The notes under the pieces were generated by a model. It saw nothing but the letters and a program-made list of their open reading frames with translations. It was not told where the DNA came from and searched no databases. A DNA stretch of 64,000 nt from Protaetiibacter sp. SSC-01 (GTDB lineage Bacteria; Actinomycetota; Actinomycetes; Actinomycetales; Microbacteriaceae). Positions within the stretch are counted from its first letter, which is position 1. Each line of letters starts with the position of its first letter. The stretch covers positions 620,001 through 684,000 of the forward strand of contig NZ_CP059987.1 in assembly GCF_014483895.1 (NCBI RefSeq), in the 5' to 3' direction. Shown here in pieces: positions 45,996 to 51,098 of the stretch. A program made the translations under genes and the position numbers.

Positions 45996-47210
45996 TCAAC
46001 TCGGGGTGATCGGGACCGGCTCGGTGTCGGGGATCGGGCTCGCGTCGCGGCCCCGCAGGTCGGGCAGCGCGCGCACGAAGACCGCCGGCACGATCGCCCC
46101 GAGCAGGCCGAAGGCCGCGGCCGCGATGAAGCCGCCCTGGGACCCGAGGTCGTCGATGAGGAACCCGGCGATCGCGGAGCCGAGCGCCGCGCCGATGAGC
46201 TGGCCGGTGCCGATCCAGCCGTAGGCCTCCGCGGTGTCGGAGAACTTCACGCTCGCCGAGACGACCGTGAACATGACCGCGAGAGCCGGCGCGATGCCGA
46301 CGCCCGCGATCGCGAGGGCGCCCGCGATCGTCCAGAACTCGAACGCCCACACCGCGACGAGGCAGCCGACGAAGACGATGAGCATGCGGCGGGCGAGCGC
46401 CCACGGGCCGATCGGCACGTGCCCGAAGCCGAGGCCGCCCGCGAGCGACGTGATCGAGAAGATCGCGAGCACGAGACCCGCCTCGAGCCCGCCCTCGCCG
46501 AAGTGCGACACGACGCCGGCCTCGACGGCCGCGCACGCCCCCACGAGCAGGAAGCCGACGACGGTGGAGAGCAGCACGGCCGGGCGCTTGAGCACGACGC
46601 CGAAGGCGCGCTTCGAGCGTGGGATGCGCACGCGTCCGAGCTCGGGGGATGCGATGAACCACGCGCCGCCTCCCACGAGGAAGGCGACCGACAGCAGGAT
46701 GCCGACGACGCTCGAGATCTGCAGCGACACGAAGGTCACGACGACGGGTCCGAGCACCCAGATGAGCTCCTGAGCCGAGGCGTCGAGCGAGAACAGCGGG
46801 GTGAGCTGCCGCGAGTTGACCATCTTGGGGTAGATCGTGCGCACGGCGGGCTGCACCGGCGGGTAGCTGAGGCCCGCGATGAGGCCCGTGAGCATGAACG
46901 CCCAGAGCGGGAGCGTCGCGGGCGCGAGGGCGATGAACGAGATCGCGACGGCGCACACGGCGGTCGTGAGGATGAGCACGGGGCGCATCCCGAAGCGGCC
47001 CATGAGCCGGCTCGTGGCGGGGCCCGAGATCGCCTGCCCGATGGACGTCGCGCCGAGCACGAGGCCCGCTGCGCCGTAGCTGTGGAAGATGTGCTCGATG
47101 TGGATGAGGAAGCCGAGCGACAGCATGCCGCCGGGGAAGCGGGCGAGCAGCTGCGCGGCGATGATCCGGGCGACTCCCCGGGTGCGCAGCAGGTCGAGAT
47201 AGGCGTTCAC
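45996..47210 (-). CDS. MFS transporter
   Basis: 404 residues with 12 membrane segments; motif A-like SRLMGRFGMRPVLIL after TM2, and a short acidic tail (DTEPVPITPS). GTG start at 47210 with GGAGGGCC. It is upstream of, and in the same direction as, the LuxR-type regulator but 81 bp away. Efflux of small molecules is the usual role; no substrate clue. Confidence 0.85.
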   Translation of the reverse strand: MNAYLDLLRTRGVARIIAAQLLARFPGGMLSLGFLIHIEHIFHSYGAAGLVLGATSIGQAISGPATSRLMGRFGMRPVLILTTAVCAVAISFIALAPATLPLWAFMLTGLIAGLSYPPVQPAVRTIYPKMVNSRQLTPLFSLDASAQELIWVLGPVVVTFVSLQISSVVGILLSVAFLVGGGAWFIASPELGRVRIPRSKRAFGVVLKRPAVLLSTVVGFLLVGACAAVEAGVVSHFGEGGLEAGLVLAIFSITSLAGGLGFGHVPIGPWALARRMLIVFVGCLVAVWAFEFWTIAGALAIAGVGIAPALAVMFTVVSASVKFSDTAEAYGWIGTGQLIGAALGSAIAGFLIDDLGSQGGFIAAAAFGLLGAIVPAVFVRALPDLRGRDASPIPDTEPVPITPS

Positions 47211-47281
47211 GGCCCTCCGAGCCTAGTGCCGACGCCCGACGTCGCGACCCGTGTCGGACGGGCCTCCTAGGGTGTGGAAAG

Positions 47282-47321
47282 TGTGCATAACAGCGGCGAA
47301 GTTATGCACATCTGTGGATGA
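47282..47321. promoter_or_regulatory. Inverted DnaA-box pair plus a third near-box upstream of nrdA
   Basis: TGTGCATAA (47282-47290) and TTATGCACA (47302-47310) are an inverted pair fitting TTWTNCACA; the full arms TGTGCATAAC/GTTATGCACA are perfect. TGTGGATGA (47313-47321) is one mismatch from TGTGGATAA. DnaA control of nrdAB is established in E. coli; here it is inferred. Confidence 0.6.
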
Positions 47322-47326
47322 CACGC

Positions 47327-47374
47327 CCACAACATCTAGGGTTGGCCCGCTGTCGGCGGCCCGATATATAGTGG
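47327..47374 (+). promoter_or_regulatory. nrdA promoter with two NrdR boxes
   Basis: TTGGCC (47342-47347), 17 bp, TATATA (47365-47370). NrdR-like boxes CCACAACATCTAGGGT (47327-47342) and GCCCGATATATAGTGG (47359-47374) are 32 bp apart, three helical turns, abutting the -35 and covering the -10. The leader to the GTG at 47500 is about 120 nt; no gene or clear structure is seen in it. Confidence 0.6.
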
Positions 47375-47499
47375 TGGAACCTCCGGGCCGGGGGAGAGCG
47401 AGGAAGCTGGCGAGCGGTCCGTCGAGGTGCGTTCTCACCAGGGTTTTTCATCGGAGTTCGGGGCGCGCAGAGAGGCTGCGCGGGGAGGAAAGGGATCAC

Positions 47500-49965
47500 G
47501 TGACCATCACCGTCGTGAAGCGCAACGGAGAGCGCGAGCCGTACGACGCCAACAAGATCAACCTGGCGATCGAGGAGGCGAGCCGCGGACTCTCCGAGGA
47601 GATCACCTGGGTCACCCAGATCGCGTCGGAGCTCGAGCTCACGCTCTTCGACGGCATCACGACGCAGCAGCTCGACGAGGCCGTCATCCAGGTCGCCCTC
47701 CAGAACGTCAAGGACGACCCGCAGTTCGACACCGTCGCCGCGCGCCTCCTCCTCAAGACGATCTACAAGCGCGTGCTCGGCGACTACAGCACCGACGAGG
47801 AGCTCAAGGACCTCCACCGCGCCCACTTCGCGCGCGCCATCAACCGCGGCGTCGACGAGCTCCTGCTCGACTCGCGCTTCCCCGCCCTCTTCGACCTCGA
47901 CCGTCTCGCCGACGCCCTCGAGCCGAGCCGCGACGGCCTCCTCAAGTACATCGGCGTCGTCACGCTCAACAACCGCTACGGCATCAAGGCCCGCAACGGC
48001 GAGCCGCTCGAGGTGCCCCAGTTCTTCTGGATGCGCATCGCCATGGGCCTCTCGCTCAACGAGGCCGACCCCACGAGCCACGCGATCGAGTTCTACGACA
48101 AGATGTCGAAGCTCGAGTACCTCGCCGCCGGCTCGACGCTCGTCAACGCGGGCACCGCCTACCCCCAGCTCTCCAACTGCTTCGTCATGGAGATGCACGA
48201 CGACATCGAGCACATCGCCAAGAGCGTGCGCGACGTCATGTGGCTCACGAAGGGCACGGGCGGCATCGGCCTCTCGGTCACCAAGCTCCGTGCGCAGGGC
48301 TCGCCCATCCGCTCCAACAACACCATGAGCACGGGACCCATCCCGTTCATGCACACGATCGACTCGGTGCTGCGCGCGGTCAGCCGCGGCGGCAAGAAGT
48401 TCGGCGCCCTGTGCTTCTACATGGAGAACTGGCACCTCGACTTCCCCGAGTTCCTCGACCTGCGCCAGAACTCGGGCGACCCCTACCGCCGCACCCGCAC
48501 CGCCAACACGGCCGTCTGGATCTCCGACGAGTTCATGAAGCGCGTGCAGAACGACGACGACTGGTACCTCTTCGACCCGCTCGAGGTCGCCGACCTCAAC
48601 GAGCTCTACGGCGAGGCGTTCTCGAAGCGCTACGCCGAGTACGTCGCGCAGGCCGAGGCCGGCCAGCTGCGCATGTTCAAGAAGATCTCCGCGCGGTCGC
48701 AGTTCAAGGACATCCTCATGTCGCTCCAGACCACGAGCCACCCGTGGCTCACCTGGAAGGACACGATCAACAACCGCGCCCTCAACAACAACACGGGCAC
48801 GATCCACCTCTCGAACCTCTGCACCGAGATCTGCCTCCCGCAGGACCTCGAGAACATCTCCGTCTGCAACCTGGCCTCCATCAACCTCTCGACCCACCTC
48901 AAGGTCGACGCGAACGGCGGCCTCGGATTCGACTGGGAGCTCATCGAGGACTCCGCGCGCAGCGCCGTGCGTCAGCTCGACAACCTCATCGACATCACCG
49001 AGTCGTCGGTCGCCGAGGCGGACCACGCCAACCAGATGAACCGCGCCATCGGCCTCGGCGTCATGGGCTTCACGGATGTCGTCGAGAAGCTCGGCTTCTC
49101 GTACGAGTCCGAGGAGGCCTACGCCCTCATGGACGAGATCATGGAGCACGTCTCCTACGCGGCGATCGACGAGTCGGCCGACCTCGCCCGCGAGCGCGGC
49201 TCGTACGCGAACTTCGAGGGCTCGCGCTGGTCGCAGGGCCTCGTGCCGTTCGACTCGATCGAGCTCACCGAGAAGGACCGCGGCATCGCGATCACGGTCG
49301 ACCGCACCATGCGCCTCGACTGGGACCGCCTGCGCGAGAAGGTCAAGGGCGGCATGCGCAACGCGACGCTCATGGCGATCGCGCCCACGGCATCCATCGG
49401 CCTCGTCGCCGGCACCACGCCCGGCCTCGACCCGCAGTTCGCTCAGATCTTCAGCCGCTCGACCTCGAACGGCAAGTTCCTCGAGGTCAACCGCAACCTC
49501 GTGGCCGACCTGCAGCGCCTCGGCATCTGGGAGAAGGTGCGCGAGCAGGTGCTGCGCAGCCAGGGCGACATCCAGGTGATCGCCGAGATCCCCGACGAGC
49601 TCAAGAAGGTCTACAAGACGAGCTTCCAGCTCTCGCCGTACGCCTTCATCGAGGTCGCGGCGCGCGCCCAGAAGTGGATCGACCAGGCCATCAGCCGCAA
49701 CATGTACCTCGAGACGCGCGACCTCGGCGACATGATGGACATCTACTACAAGGCGTGGGAGAAGGGCGTCAAGACGACGTACTACCTGCACGTCAAGCCC
49801 CGTCACCAGGCCGAGCAGTCCACCGTCAAGGTCAACAAGGCGGAGGAGATCACGGCCGGCGCCAAGCGCGGCTTCGGCGCCGCAGGCCCCGCGGCCGCCC
49901 CGGCATCCGAGGCTCCCGCCGCCGCCCCCGGCTCGCCGCGTCGCGGATTCGGCGGCCTCGCATGA
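47500..49965 (+). CDS. nrdA: Ribonucleoside-diphosphate reductase large subunit, lacking its own C-terminal CxxC tail
   Basis: 821 residues. N-terminal ATP-cone (VVKRNGEREPYDANKINLAIEEASRG). Active-site cysteines in SNCFVMEMHDD, the radical-site motif NLCTEICLP and SVCNLASINL; catalytic-site loop APTASIGLVAGTTPG and YYLHVKPRH near the end. The C-terminus is a Gly/Pro/Ala linker with KRGFGAAG and RRGFGGLA, then TGA. The redox-active Cys pair that re-reduces the active site is missing here and appears in the next, overlapping 26-codon ORF. GTG 47500 is preceded by GGGGAGGAAAGGG. Reduces ribonucleotides to deoxyribonucleotides with NrdB. Confidence 0.93.
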   Translation: MTITVVKRNGEREPYDANKINLAIEEASRGLSEEITWVTQIASELELTLFDGITTQQLDEAVIQVALQNVKDDPQFDTVAARLLLKTIYKRVLGDYSTDEELKDLHRAHFARAINRGVDELLLDSRFPALFDLDRLADALEPSRDGLLKYIGVVTLNNRYGIKARNGEPLEVPQFFWMRIAMGLSLNEADPTSHAIEFYDKMSKLEYLAAGSTLVNAGTAYPQLSNCFVMEMHDDIEHIAKSVRDVMWLTKGTGGIGLSVTKLRAQGSPIRSNNTMSTGPIPFMHTIDSVLRAVSRGGKKFGALCFYMENWHLDFPEFLDLRQNSGDPYRRTRTANTAVWISDEFMKRVQNDDDWYLFDPLEVADLNELYGEAFSKRYAEYVAQAEAGQLRMFKKISARSQFKDILMSLQTTSHPWLTWKDTINNRALNNNTGTIHLSNLCTEICLPQDLENISVCNLASINLSTHLKVDANGGLGFDWELIEDSARSAVRQLDNLIDITESSVAEADHANQMNRAIGLGVMGFTDVVEKLGFSYESEEAYALMDEIMEHVSYAAIDESADLARERGSYANFEGSRWSQGLVPFDSIELTEKDRGIAITVDRTMRLDWDRLREKVKGGMRNATLMAIAPTASIGLVAGTTPGLDPQFAQIFSRSTSNGKFLEVNRNLVADLQRLGIWEKVREQVLRSQGDIQVIAEIPDELKKVYKTSFQLSPYAFIEVAARAQKWIDQAISRNMYLETRDLGDMMDIYYKAWEKGVKTTYYLHVKPRHQAEQSTVKVNKAEEITAGAKRGFGAAGPAAAPASEAPAAAPGSPRRGFGGLA

Positions 49966-50096: not shown

Positions 50097-51098
50097 ATGC
50101 CCATCCTCGGCACCGGAGTCCAGGAAGGACTCCTCCTCAAGCCCATCACCTACCAGTGGGCGATGGACCTCTACGACCAGGCGGTCGCCAACACCTGGTT
50201 CCCCAACGAGATCCAGCTCGGCGAGGACCTCGCCGACTTCAAGAAGATGACCGACGAGGAGCGCCACGCGGTCACCTTCCTCATCTCGTACTTCAACCCC
50301 AACGAGCTGCTCGTCAACAAGGCGCTCGCGTTCGGGGTGTACCCGTACGTGAACGCGCCGGAGGCGCACCTCTATCTCGCGAAGCAGATGTGGGAGGAGG
50401 CCAACCACTGCATGTCGTTCGAGTACGTGCTCGAGACGTTCCCGATCGACCGCAACGAGGCCTACAACTCGCACGTCGACATCCCCTCCATGGCGCGCAA
50501 GGAGGAGTTCGAGGTCAAGTTCATCAAGCGGATGACCGAGGAGACCCTCGACATCACGACGACCGCGGGCAAGCAGGACTTCATCCGGAACCTGATCGCC
50601 TACAACATCATCCTCGAGGGCATCTGGTTCTACTCGGGGTTCATGGTGGCGCTCTCGTTCCGTCAGCGGAACCTGCTGCGCAACTTCGGTTCGCTCGTCG
50701 ACTGGATCGTGCGCGACGAGTCGCTGCACCTCAAGTTCGGCATCAACCTCATCCTCACGGTGCTCGACGAGAACCCCGATCTGCAGACCCCGGAGTTCGC
50801 GGCCGAGATCAAGCAGATGATCCTCGACGCCGTCGAGATGGAGGAGCAGTACAACAACGACCTGCTCCCGAACGGCATCCTCGGCCTCAACGCGAACTAC
50901 ATCAACCAGTACGTGAAGTACCTCGCCGACCGTCGCCTCGAGGAGCTCGGCTTCGGCACGCACTACAACGTGGTGAACCCGGCCAAGTGGATGGCGACGG
51001 CGAACGACACGCTCGAGCTCGTCAACTTCTTCGAGTCGACGAACACCTCCTACGAGGCGAACGCCAAGGCGTCGACGGGCGACCGCCCGAAGGAGTAG
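50097..51098 (+). CDS. nrdB: Ribonucleotide reductase small subunit, class Ic-like (Tyr replaced by Phe)
   Basis: 333 residues. Metal ligands by spacing: E70, E101, H104, E174, E208 and H211 (FNPNELL, WEEANH, ILEGIWF, RDESLHL). The gaps 31, 3, 70, 34 and 3 equal those of the Chlamydia trachomatis enzyme (E89, E120, H123, E193, E227, H230). The first ligand is Glu rather than Asp, and the radical tyrosine four residues after the first His is Phe (F108, HCMSF). These are the class Ic features tied to a Mn/Fe cofactor. It follows the nrdA tail ORF by 54 bp. A hairpin terminator follows. Confidence 0.93.
   Translation: MPILGTGVQEGLLLKPITYQWAMDLYDQAVANTWFPNEIQLGEDLADFKKMTDEERHAVTFLISYFNPNELLVNKALAFGVYPYVNAPEAHLYLAKQMWEEANHCMSFEYVLETFPIDRNEAYNSHVDIPSMARKEEFEVKFIKRMTEETLDITTTAGKQDFIRNLIAYNIILEGIWFYSGFMVALSFRQRNLLRNFGSLVDWIVRDESLHLKFGINLILTVLDENPDLQTPEFAAEIKQMILDAVEMEEQYNNDLLPNGILGLNANYINQYVKYLADRRLEELGFGTHYNVVNPAKWMATANDTLELVNFFESTNTSYEANAKASTGDRPKE

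Follow-up and report, generated by a model that had tools for sequence, protein, structure and literature searches.

The supply of dNTPs has to match replication and repair. For species that lack Hda, the available part of PMC11853086 raises as an open question how dNTP synthesis is linked to initiation. For nrdAB of E. coli, DnaA control is established: DnaA-ATP represses and low occupancy activates transcription, as stated in the available text of PMC8203912; the initial annotation of the present locus had likewise named DnaA control of E. coli nrdAB as known. The same text treats DnaA control of ribonucleotide reductase (RNR) in Caulobacter and Bacillus as proposals. Repression of E. coli nrdAB by NrdR is mentioned along with DnaA in the available part of PMC11853086. 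Two further regulators are relevant here. In mycobacteria, the PafBC motif TGTCGG-N10-TANNNT often lies across the -35/-10 region and is directional (PMC8151990, available sections), and PafB reads a -26 motif on the SigA polymerase after activation by ssDNA (PMC11804915, available sections). The WhiA motif is GACAC. In S. venezuelae, the nrdR promoter is footprinted by WhiA (PMC3781837, in part), and the motif occurs in about 15,000 copies in this species (PMC4850268, in part). Control of an actinobacterial nrdAB by DnaA or PafBC is not reported in the available portions of PMC3781837, PMC4850268, PMC5656591, PMC8151990, PMC6789036, PMC8203912, PMC11804915, PMC11853086 and PMC9739823.

From the sites, their spacing and their conservation, all of which were observed directly, we infer that the nrdAB promoter described here probably integrates inputs from NrdR, DnaA and PafBC and, with less certainty, WhiA. 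One short stretch of DNA may thus read several signals on the demand for DNA, i.e., the starter of replication, the repressor of the operon itself and an activator responding to damage.

The nrdAB locus and its predicted NrdR operator

The stretch of DNA analysed here (64,000 nucleotides; the window) belongs to an actinobacterial genome of 2.96 Mb in one contig. It contains nrdA (47500–49965, plus strand, with a GTG start chosen by us), which encodes a class I RNR alpha subunit with an ATP cone, and nrdB for the beta subunit (50097–51098, plus strand). Only one gene in the genome belongs to PF02867 (class I/II RNR large subunit), and a search for ATP cones returned NrdA and NrdR and no other protein. 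Genes for DnaA, NrdR, PafC and WhiA are all present. Among the NrdA relatives, the nearest kin are Microbacteriaceae, led by the MAG BP8.4 at 96% and followed by Homoserinibacter and Protaetiibacter. Promoters were compared over 81 nrdA loci, consisting of the window and the best 80 of 405 NrdA relatives, a sample that favours close kin and includes one locus (L068) with only 42 bases before NrdR box 1. Another locus (L016) comes from a MAG titled Acidobacteria; its nrdA and promoter are typical of Microbacteriaceae, and it is probably mislabelled or a mixed bin. Directly 5′ of the nrdA ribosome-binding site, a possible hairpin, CGCGCAG-AGAGG-CTGCGCG, was read by eye at 47464–47482; hairpin-like sequence before nrdA, likewise read by eye, is kept in the relatives L002, L004 and L005 with changed bases.

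A paired-box scan of the 81 loci placed NrdR box 1 at 47327–47342 and NrdR box 2 at 47359–47374, both on the plus strand; the register of box 2, which contains the inferred -10 (TATATA/TATAGT), is our reading. The two NrdR-like boxes bracketing the promoter, as proposed in the initial annotation, were thereby recovered, with starts 32 bp apart or about three turns. The scan reports one best pair for any locus; among these pairs, 71 of 81 had the commonest spacing, eight were one base longer and two one base shorter, and five columns of box 1 were identical in 81/81 loci. Paired boxes across an RNR promoter, together with nrdR in the genome, make these predicted NrdR regulon sites. As inferred from the known family, NrdR-dATP on the box pair across the proximal -10 would repress transcription.

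The core promoter had been annotated as TTGGCC-17-TATATA. Both hexamers are present, 17 bp apart (47342–47347 and 47365–47370), but TTGGCC had to be rejected as a conserved -35 hexamer: across the 81 promoters, its first two bases alone stand out (69% and 64%), and these are the end of NrdR box 1. A promoter scan of 47150–47510 found no consensus sigma-70 promoter. In one relative (L078), about 120–160 bp before nrdA, NrdR box 2 and TGTC are followed by their own inverted copy, which forms a long palindrome over the promoter; another (L081) has an imperfect version of it.

DnaA boxes upstream of the operator

Two inverted boxes and a third near-match, annotated upstream of the promoter, were all found in place. 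Box A (47282–47290, minus strand) and box B (47302–47310, plus strand) both read TTATGCACA, and the weak box C (47313–47321, minus strand) reads TGTGGATGA on the plus and TCATCCACA on the minus strand. In the window, 11 bp separate the centres of boxes B and C. The only two copies of TTWTNCACA in the whole 64 kb are those at the nrdA promoter, vs 0.08 expected from shuffles. The whole 2.96-Mb genome contains 17 TTRTNCACA sites vs five for the reversed control, and the TTATGCACA form occurs at the nrdA promoter only. The C-terminal domain of the DnaA of this genome matches solved DNA-binding domains (3pvp, 1j1v). A further pair of DnaA boxes, 145 bp apart, was seen elsewhere in the same genome (L086:922–930, TTGTCCACA; 1067–1075, TTATCCACA); this pair and the remaining genomic boxes were viewed by open frame.

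The initial annotation had made its reading depend on whether the boxes recur upstream of nrdA in close relatives. They do: the 60 bp 5′ of NrdR box 1 hold 113 exact TTRTNCACA, spread over 73 of the 81 promoters, whereas 100 shuffles of the same 60 bp gave 0.99 on average and never more than 4. In the 80 relatives taken by themselves, 111 exact copies fall within the 4,782 bp 5′ of NrdR box 1 vs six in the remaining 421,204 bp of these loci. No exact DnaA box was found in eight of the 81 loci (L022, L031, L037, L039, L042, L055, L058 and L077). Box A is exact in 47/81 loci and has at most one mismatch in 72/81; for box B these numbers are 64/81 and 72/81. Box C is exact in none of the 81 loci and has one mismatch in 73/81, with C at position 2 in 79/81. 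All three boxes together have at most one mismatch each in 66/81 loci. The earlier reading, DnaA and NrdR sites on one RNR promoter, is thus supported at the level of predicted sites. A family-wide search with the pattern TGTGGANGACACGCCNNC matched 97 of 299 genomes; these matches are not tied to nrdA, so they provide no evidence of presence or absence.

The boxes occupy defined slots relative to NrdR box 1: box A on the minus strand at -44/-45 in 61 loci, at -43 in two and at -35 in nine; box B on the plus strand at -24 to -26; and box C, TCRTCCACA-like, on the minus strand at -13/-14. In eight loci, each with a Leifsonia title, the exact box is found at -35 rather than near -45, one helical turn closer to NrdR box 1, and a one-mismatch box lies at -35 in L010 and L017 (Leifsonia) and in L058.

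A DnaA box tolerates changes at positions 3 and 5, the other seven positions being fixed. On the NrdA tree, the fewest changes needed at positions 1–9 (quick method) were 0, 1, 22, 2, 27, 2, 2, 0 and 2 for box A (74/81 rows), 0, 1, 9, 1, 22, 0, 3, 0 and 0 for box B (75/81 rows) and 0, 0, 19, 0, 4, 0, 0, 0 and 0 for box C (76/81 rows), compared with 19–36 changes in control columns; rows exceeding two mismatches were excluded and the best-fitting of five, three or two offsets was used, both of which bias the counts towards the pattern. In boxes A and B, positions 3 and 5 thus appear free and the other seven almost invariant, which matches the expectation for DnaA boxes. The inverted TTATGCACA pair might instead be the palindromic operator of another regulator, and boxes A and B do form a perfect 10-bp inverted repeat in the window that exists at a single place in the genome. 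Against such an operator, the two boxes vary at position 5 and in spacing, including the shift by a whole turn, which a single dimer site would hardly tolerate. Furthermore, the two TTRTNCACA sites in the dnaA–dnaN region of the same genome (1081, minus strand; 1240, plus strand) both read TTATCCACA. We consider a foreign operator highly unlikely.

Loci that titrate or reactivate DnaA, such as datA and DARS, suggest another reading, in which the boxes lie beside nrdA by chance and have no effect on its transcription. The cluster indeed comprises two of the 17 TTRTNCACA sites of the genome. However, the distance from boxes B and C to NrdR box 1 hardly varies among the Microbacteriaceae loci, and the presence of DnaA boxes changes only three times on the NrdA tree, which makes a chance neighbourhood most improbable. 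Our preferred reading remains that DnaA acts on nrdAB: it would occupy the strong boxes A and B and the weak box C, all on the same helical face and about 58–97 bp upstream of the inferred proximal start, and would tie nrdAB transcription to the initiation of replication. By analogy with E. coli, the most likely sign is activation at low occupancy and repression by abundant DnaA-ATP.

Beyond the family, NrdA scored above the cut-off in 20 of 119 genomes of an order-wide sample; 19 of these loci are outside the window and one of them (L106) is a fragment, leaving 18 for comparison. Four of the six loci of family f10 had an exact DnaA box close to the NrdR boxes, arranged differently from the window, and the remaining 12 loci had none. 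A PafBC-type match was present in one of the 18 (L113). In the class-wide sample, NrdA exceeded the cut-off in 29 of 246 genomes, 28 of them outside the window, and none of these 28 loci had an exact DnaA box near its best NrdR pair or a PafBC-type motif; the best-pair scoring always returns one pair, with lower scores in family f35. Within these samples, the predicted DnaA cluster looks specific to Microbacteriaceae and f10, or has been lost elsewhere.

PafBC-type damage motifs at the nrdA promoter

A predicted PafBC-type element at the nrdA promoter had been overlooked in the initial annotation. The spacer between the NrdR boxes carries a conserved TGTCRG in the 81 promoters, and in the window it is part of a proximal motif, TGTCGG-N10-TATAGT (47351–47372, plus strand), whose TATAGT is shared with NrdR box 2. 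A distal motif, TGTCGG-N10-TAGGGT, lies at 47252–47273 on the plus strand. The proximal motif occurs in strict form in 44/81 loci and the distal motif in 27/81. Over the 81 regions (up to 310 bp each), we counted 71 strict TGTCRG-N10-TANNNT in sense orientation, none in antisense and none in reversed form. At least one copy pointing at nrdA is present in 65/81 loci, both copies in 6/81 and none in 16/81, and nrdA is accordingly a predicted member of the PafBC regulon. Because the -10 of the proximal motif is shared with NrdR box 2, only TGTCRG at its fixed distance counts as independent evidence there: TGTCRG stands at N10 before TATAG[TG] in 44/81 loci and at any other offset once; if one mismatch is permitted, 56 copies have the N10 spacing and 32 another one. 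On the NrdA tree, the columns of the proximal motif are changeable (11–25 changes), which agrees with the 17 gains or losses inferred. Proximal and distal copies tend to alternate (Fisher test, p 5e-5), but the median p is 0.06 on independent pairs; a trade-off between the two predicted sites is therefore no more than suggestive, and the PafBC reading does not draw on site turnover.

TGTCRG might alternatively be a fixed part of the core promoter, as a spacer element or a substitute for the -35, with DnaA and NrdR acting alone and no response to damage. This would fit the fact that NrdR box 2 by itself requires TATAGT, the absence of a strict proximal motif in 37/81 loci and the upstream copies of TGTCRG without a partner: of 50 in the 110 bp upstream, 23 have no TANNNT in reach. 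The remaining 27, in contrast, have TANNNT within about 20 bp, every one at exactly N10. The strict distal motif, which has its own TANNNT, stands without a proximal copy in 21 of its 27 loci, and the same motif precedes recA, uvrA, uvrB and polA. On balance, a core-promoter role without damage response seems unlikely.

In the whole genome, the PafBC-type pattern has 14 matches vs one for the reversed control, and 12 of the 14 are away from nrdA. Candidate downstream frames were scanned at ten of these 12 (all except L118 and L127), and the chosen frame need not be the regulated gene; they include UvrA, UvrB, PolA, RecA, DnaB, HU and an exonuclease, besides an N6 methylase (HsdM-like), an MFS protein and a PfkB kinase. 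The PafC homologue matches PDB 6sj9 at 2e-46 and the PafC of 7p5x at 8.3e-28. Beside it lie a second WYL match, the sole trace of PafB, and a frame read as TatC. Upstream of dnaB, a PafBC-type motif (G000:C1:2940333–2940354, L129) and a TTGTCCACA box (2940465–2940473, L091) are about 110 bp apart, and dnaB is a second replication gene with both a DnaA box and a PafBC-type motif.

PafBC, activated by ssDNA, would bring SigA RNA polymerase to TGTCRG-N10-TANNNT in place of a -35 and induce nrdAB upon damage. The inferred starts, six to seven bases past TANNNT, are at about 47379 (proximal) and 47280 (distal). With the -10 of the proximal motif lying within NrdR box 2, PafBC as activator and NrdR as repressor would compete for it. 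The distal motif lies 5′ of the DnaA cluster and the DnaA boxes are just downstream of the inferred distal start, a region that DnaA would then occupy. If true, the interlock of PafBC and NrdR on one -10 would show how damage overrides the dATP feedback. A literature search, which covered few subscription journals, found no report of PafBC on an RNR promoter or of NrdR together with PafBC.

The GACAC element and comparison with known systems

Adjoining NrdR box 1, the element GACACGCC (47320–47327, plus strand) contains GACAC and is a candidate WhiA site. GACAC occurs at most 16 bp before NrdR box 1 in 81/81 loci, and its columns change three to five times on the NrdA tree. It might be a mere extension of the NrdR site rather than a WhiA site: it stands at -7 (70 loci) or -6 (eight loci) of NrdR box 1 in 78/81 loci and is close to the box in several other families. 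Its position nevertheless varies, being -16 in L031, L037 and L077 and 46 bp before NrdR box 1 in five of the six f10 loci; it is therefore not simply part of the NrdR site. We regard the extension as a real possibility, somewhat short of an even one. Both the GACAC motif and a whiA gene are present, although five bases are too few to be diagnostic and the motif is common in GC-rich genomes. Taken as a further, less certain site beside NrdR box 1, GACACGCC is at best about as likely as not to be bound by WhiA. The same GACACGCC was also seen at L083:1019–1026, in the dnaA–dnaN region just 3′ of dnaA.

The nrdAB promoter of E. coli is a target of DnaA, NrdR and Fis. Upstream of E. coli nrdA, TTATCCACA and TTATGCACT lie 39 and 27 bp before an NrdR-like pair, ACACTATCTTGCAGTG / CCCCTATATATAGTGT. 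This pair, which we take to be the known NrdR pair of E. coli nrdA, scored second, one point below a pair further downstream. As in the window, the DnaA boxes are thus located just 5′ of an NrdR-like pair. Unlike in E. coli, which belongs to another phylum, boxes A and B are inverted in the window and a weak third box is conserved, and the 330 bp of E. coli DNA scanned contained no PafBC motif. The nrdAB and nrdRJ promoters of Streptomyces share the NrdR box pair and the GACAC motif with the window, whereas none of the 16 loci of family f38 (probably Streptomycetaceae, which is a guess) had an exact DnaA box or a PafBC motif. Mycobacterial recA P1 of the PafBC regulon resembles the nrdA promoter in its directional TGTCGG-N10-TANNNT across -35/-10 (PMC8151990, available sections); the motif at nrdA differs in being interlocked with the NrdR operator.

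DnaA and NrdR on one RNR promoter are already known from E. coli, and their combination is not new in itself. As far as the literature was searched, the lineage is new, and so are the PafBC motifs with their interlock and the possible WhiA site. The layout resembling that of E. coli may have arisen convergently, and its similarity in a distant phylum suggests that coupling has been repeatedly favoured and offers a natural replicate for testing it. Tentatively, and with rather more doubt than confidence in the full picture, we propose that the Microbacteriaceae RNR operon receives four inputs within about 125 bp (DnaA, NrdR, PafBC twice and WhiA), in which polymerase with PafBC would compete with NrdR for the -10 and DnaA would gate a second, damage-inducible start, a layout convergent with that of E. 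coli.
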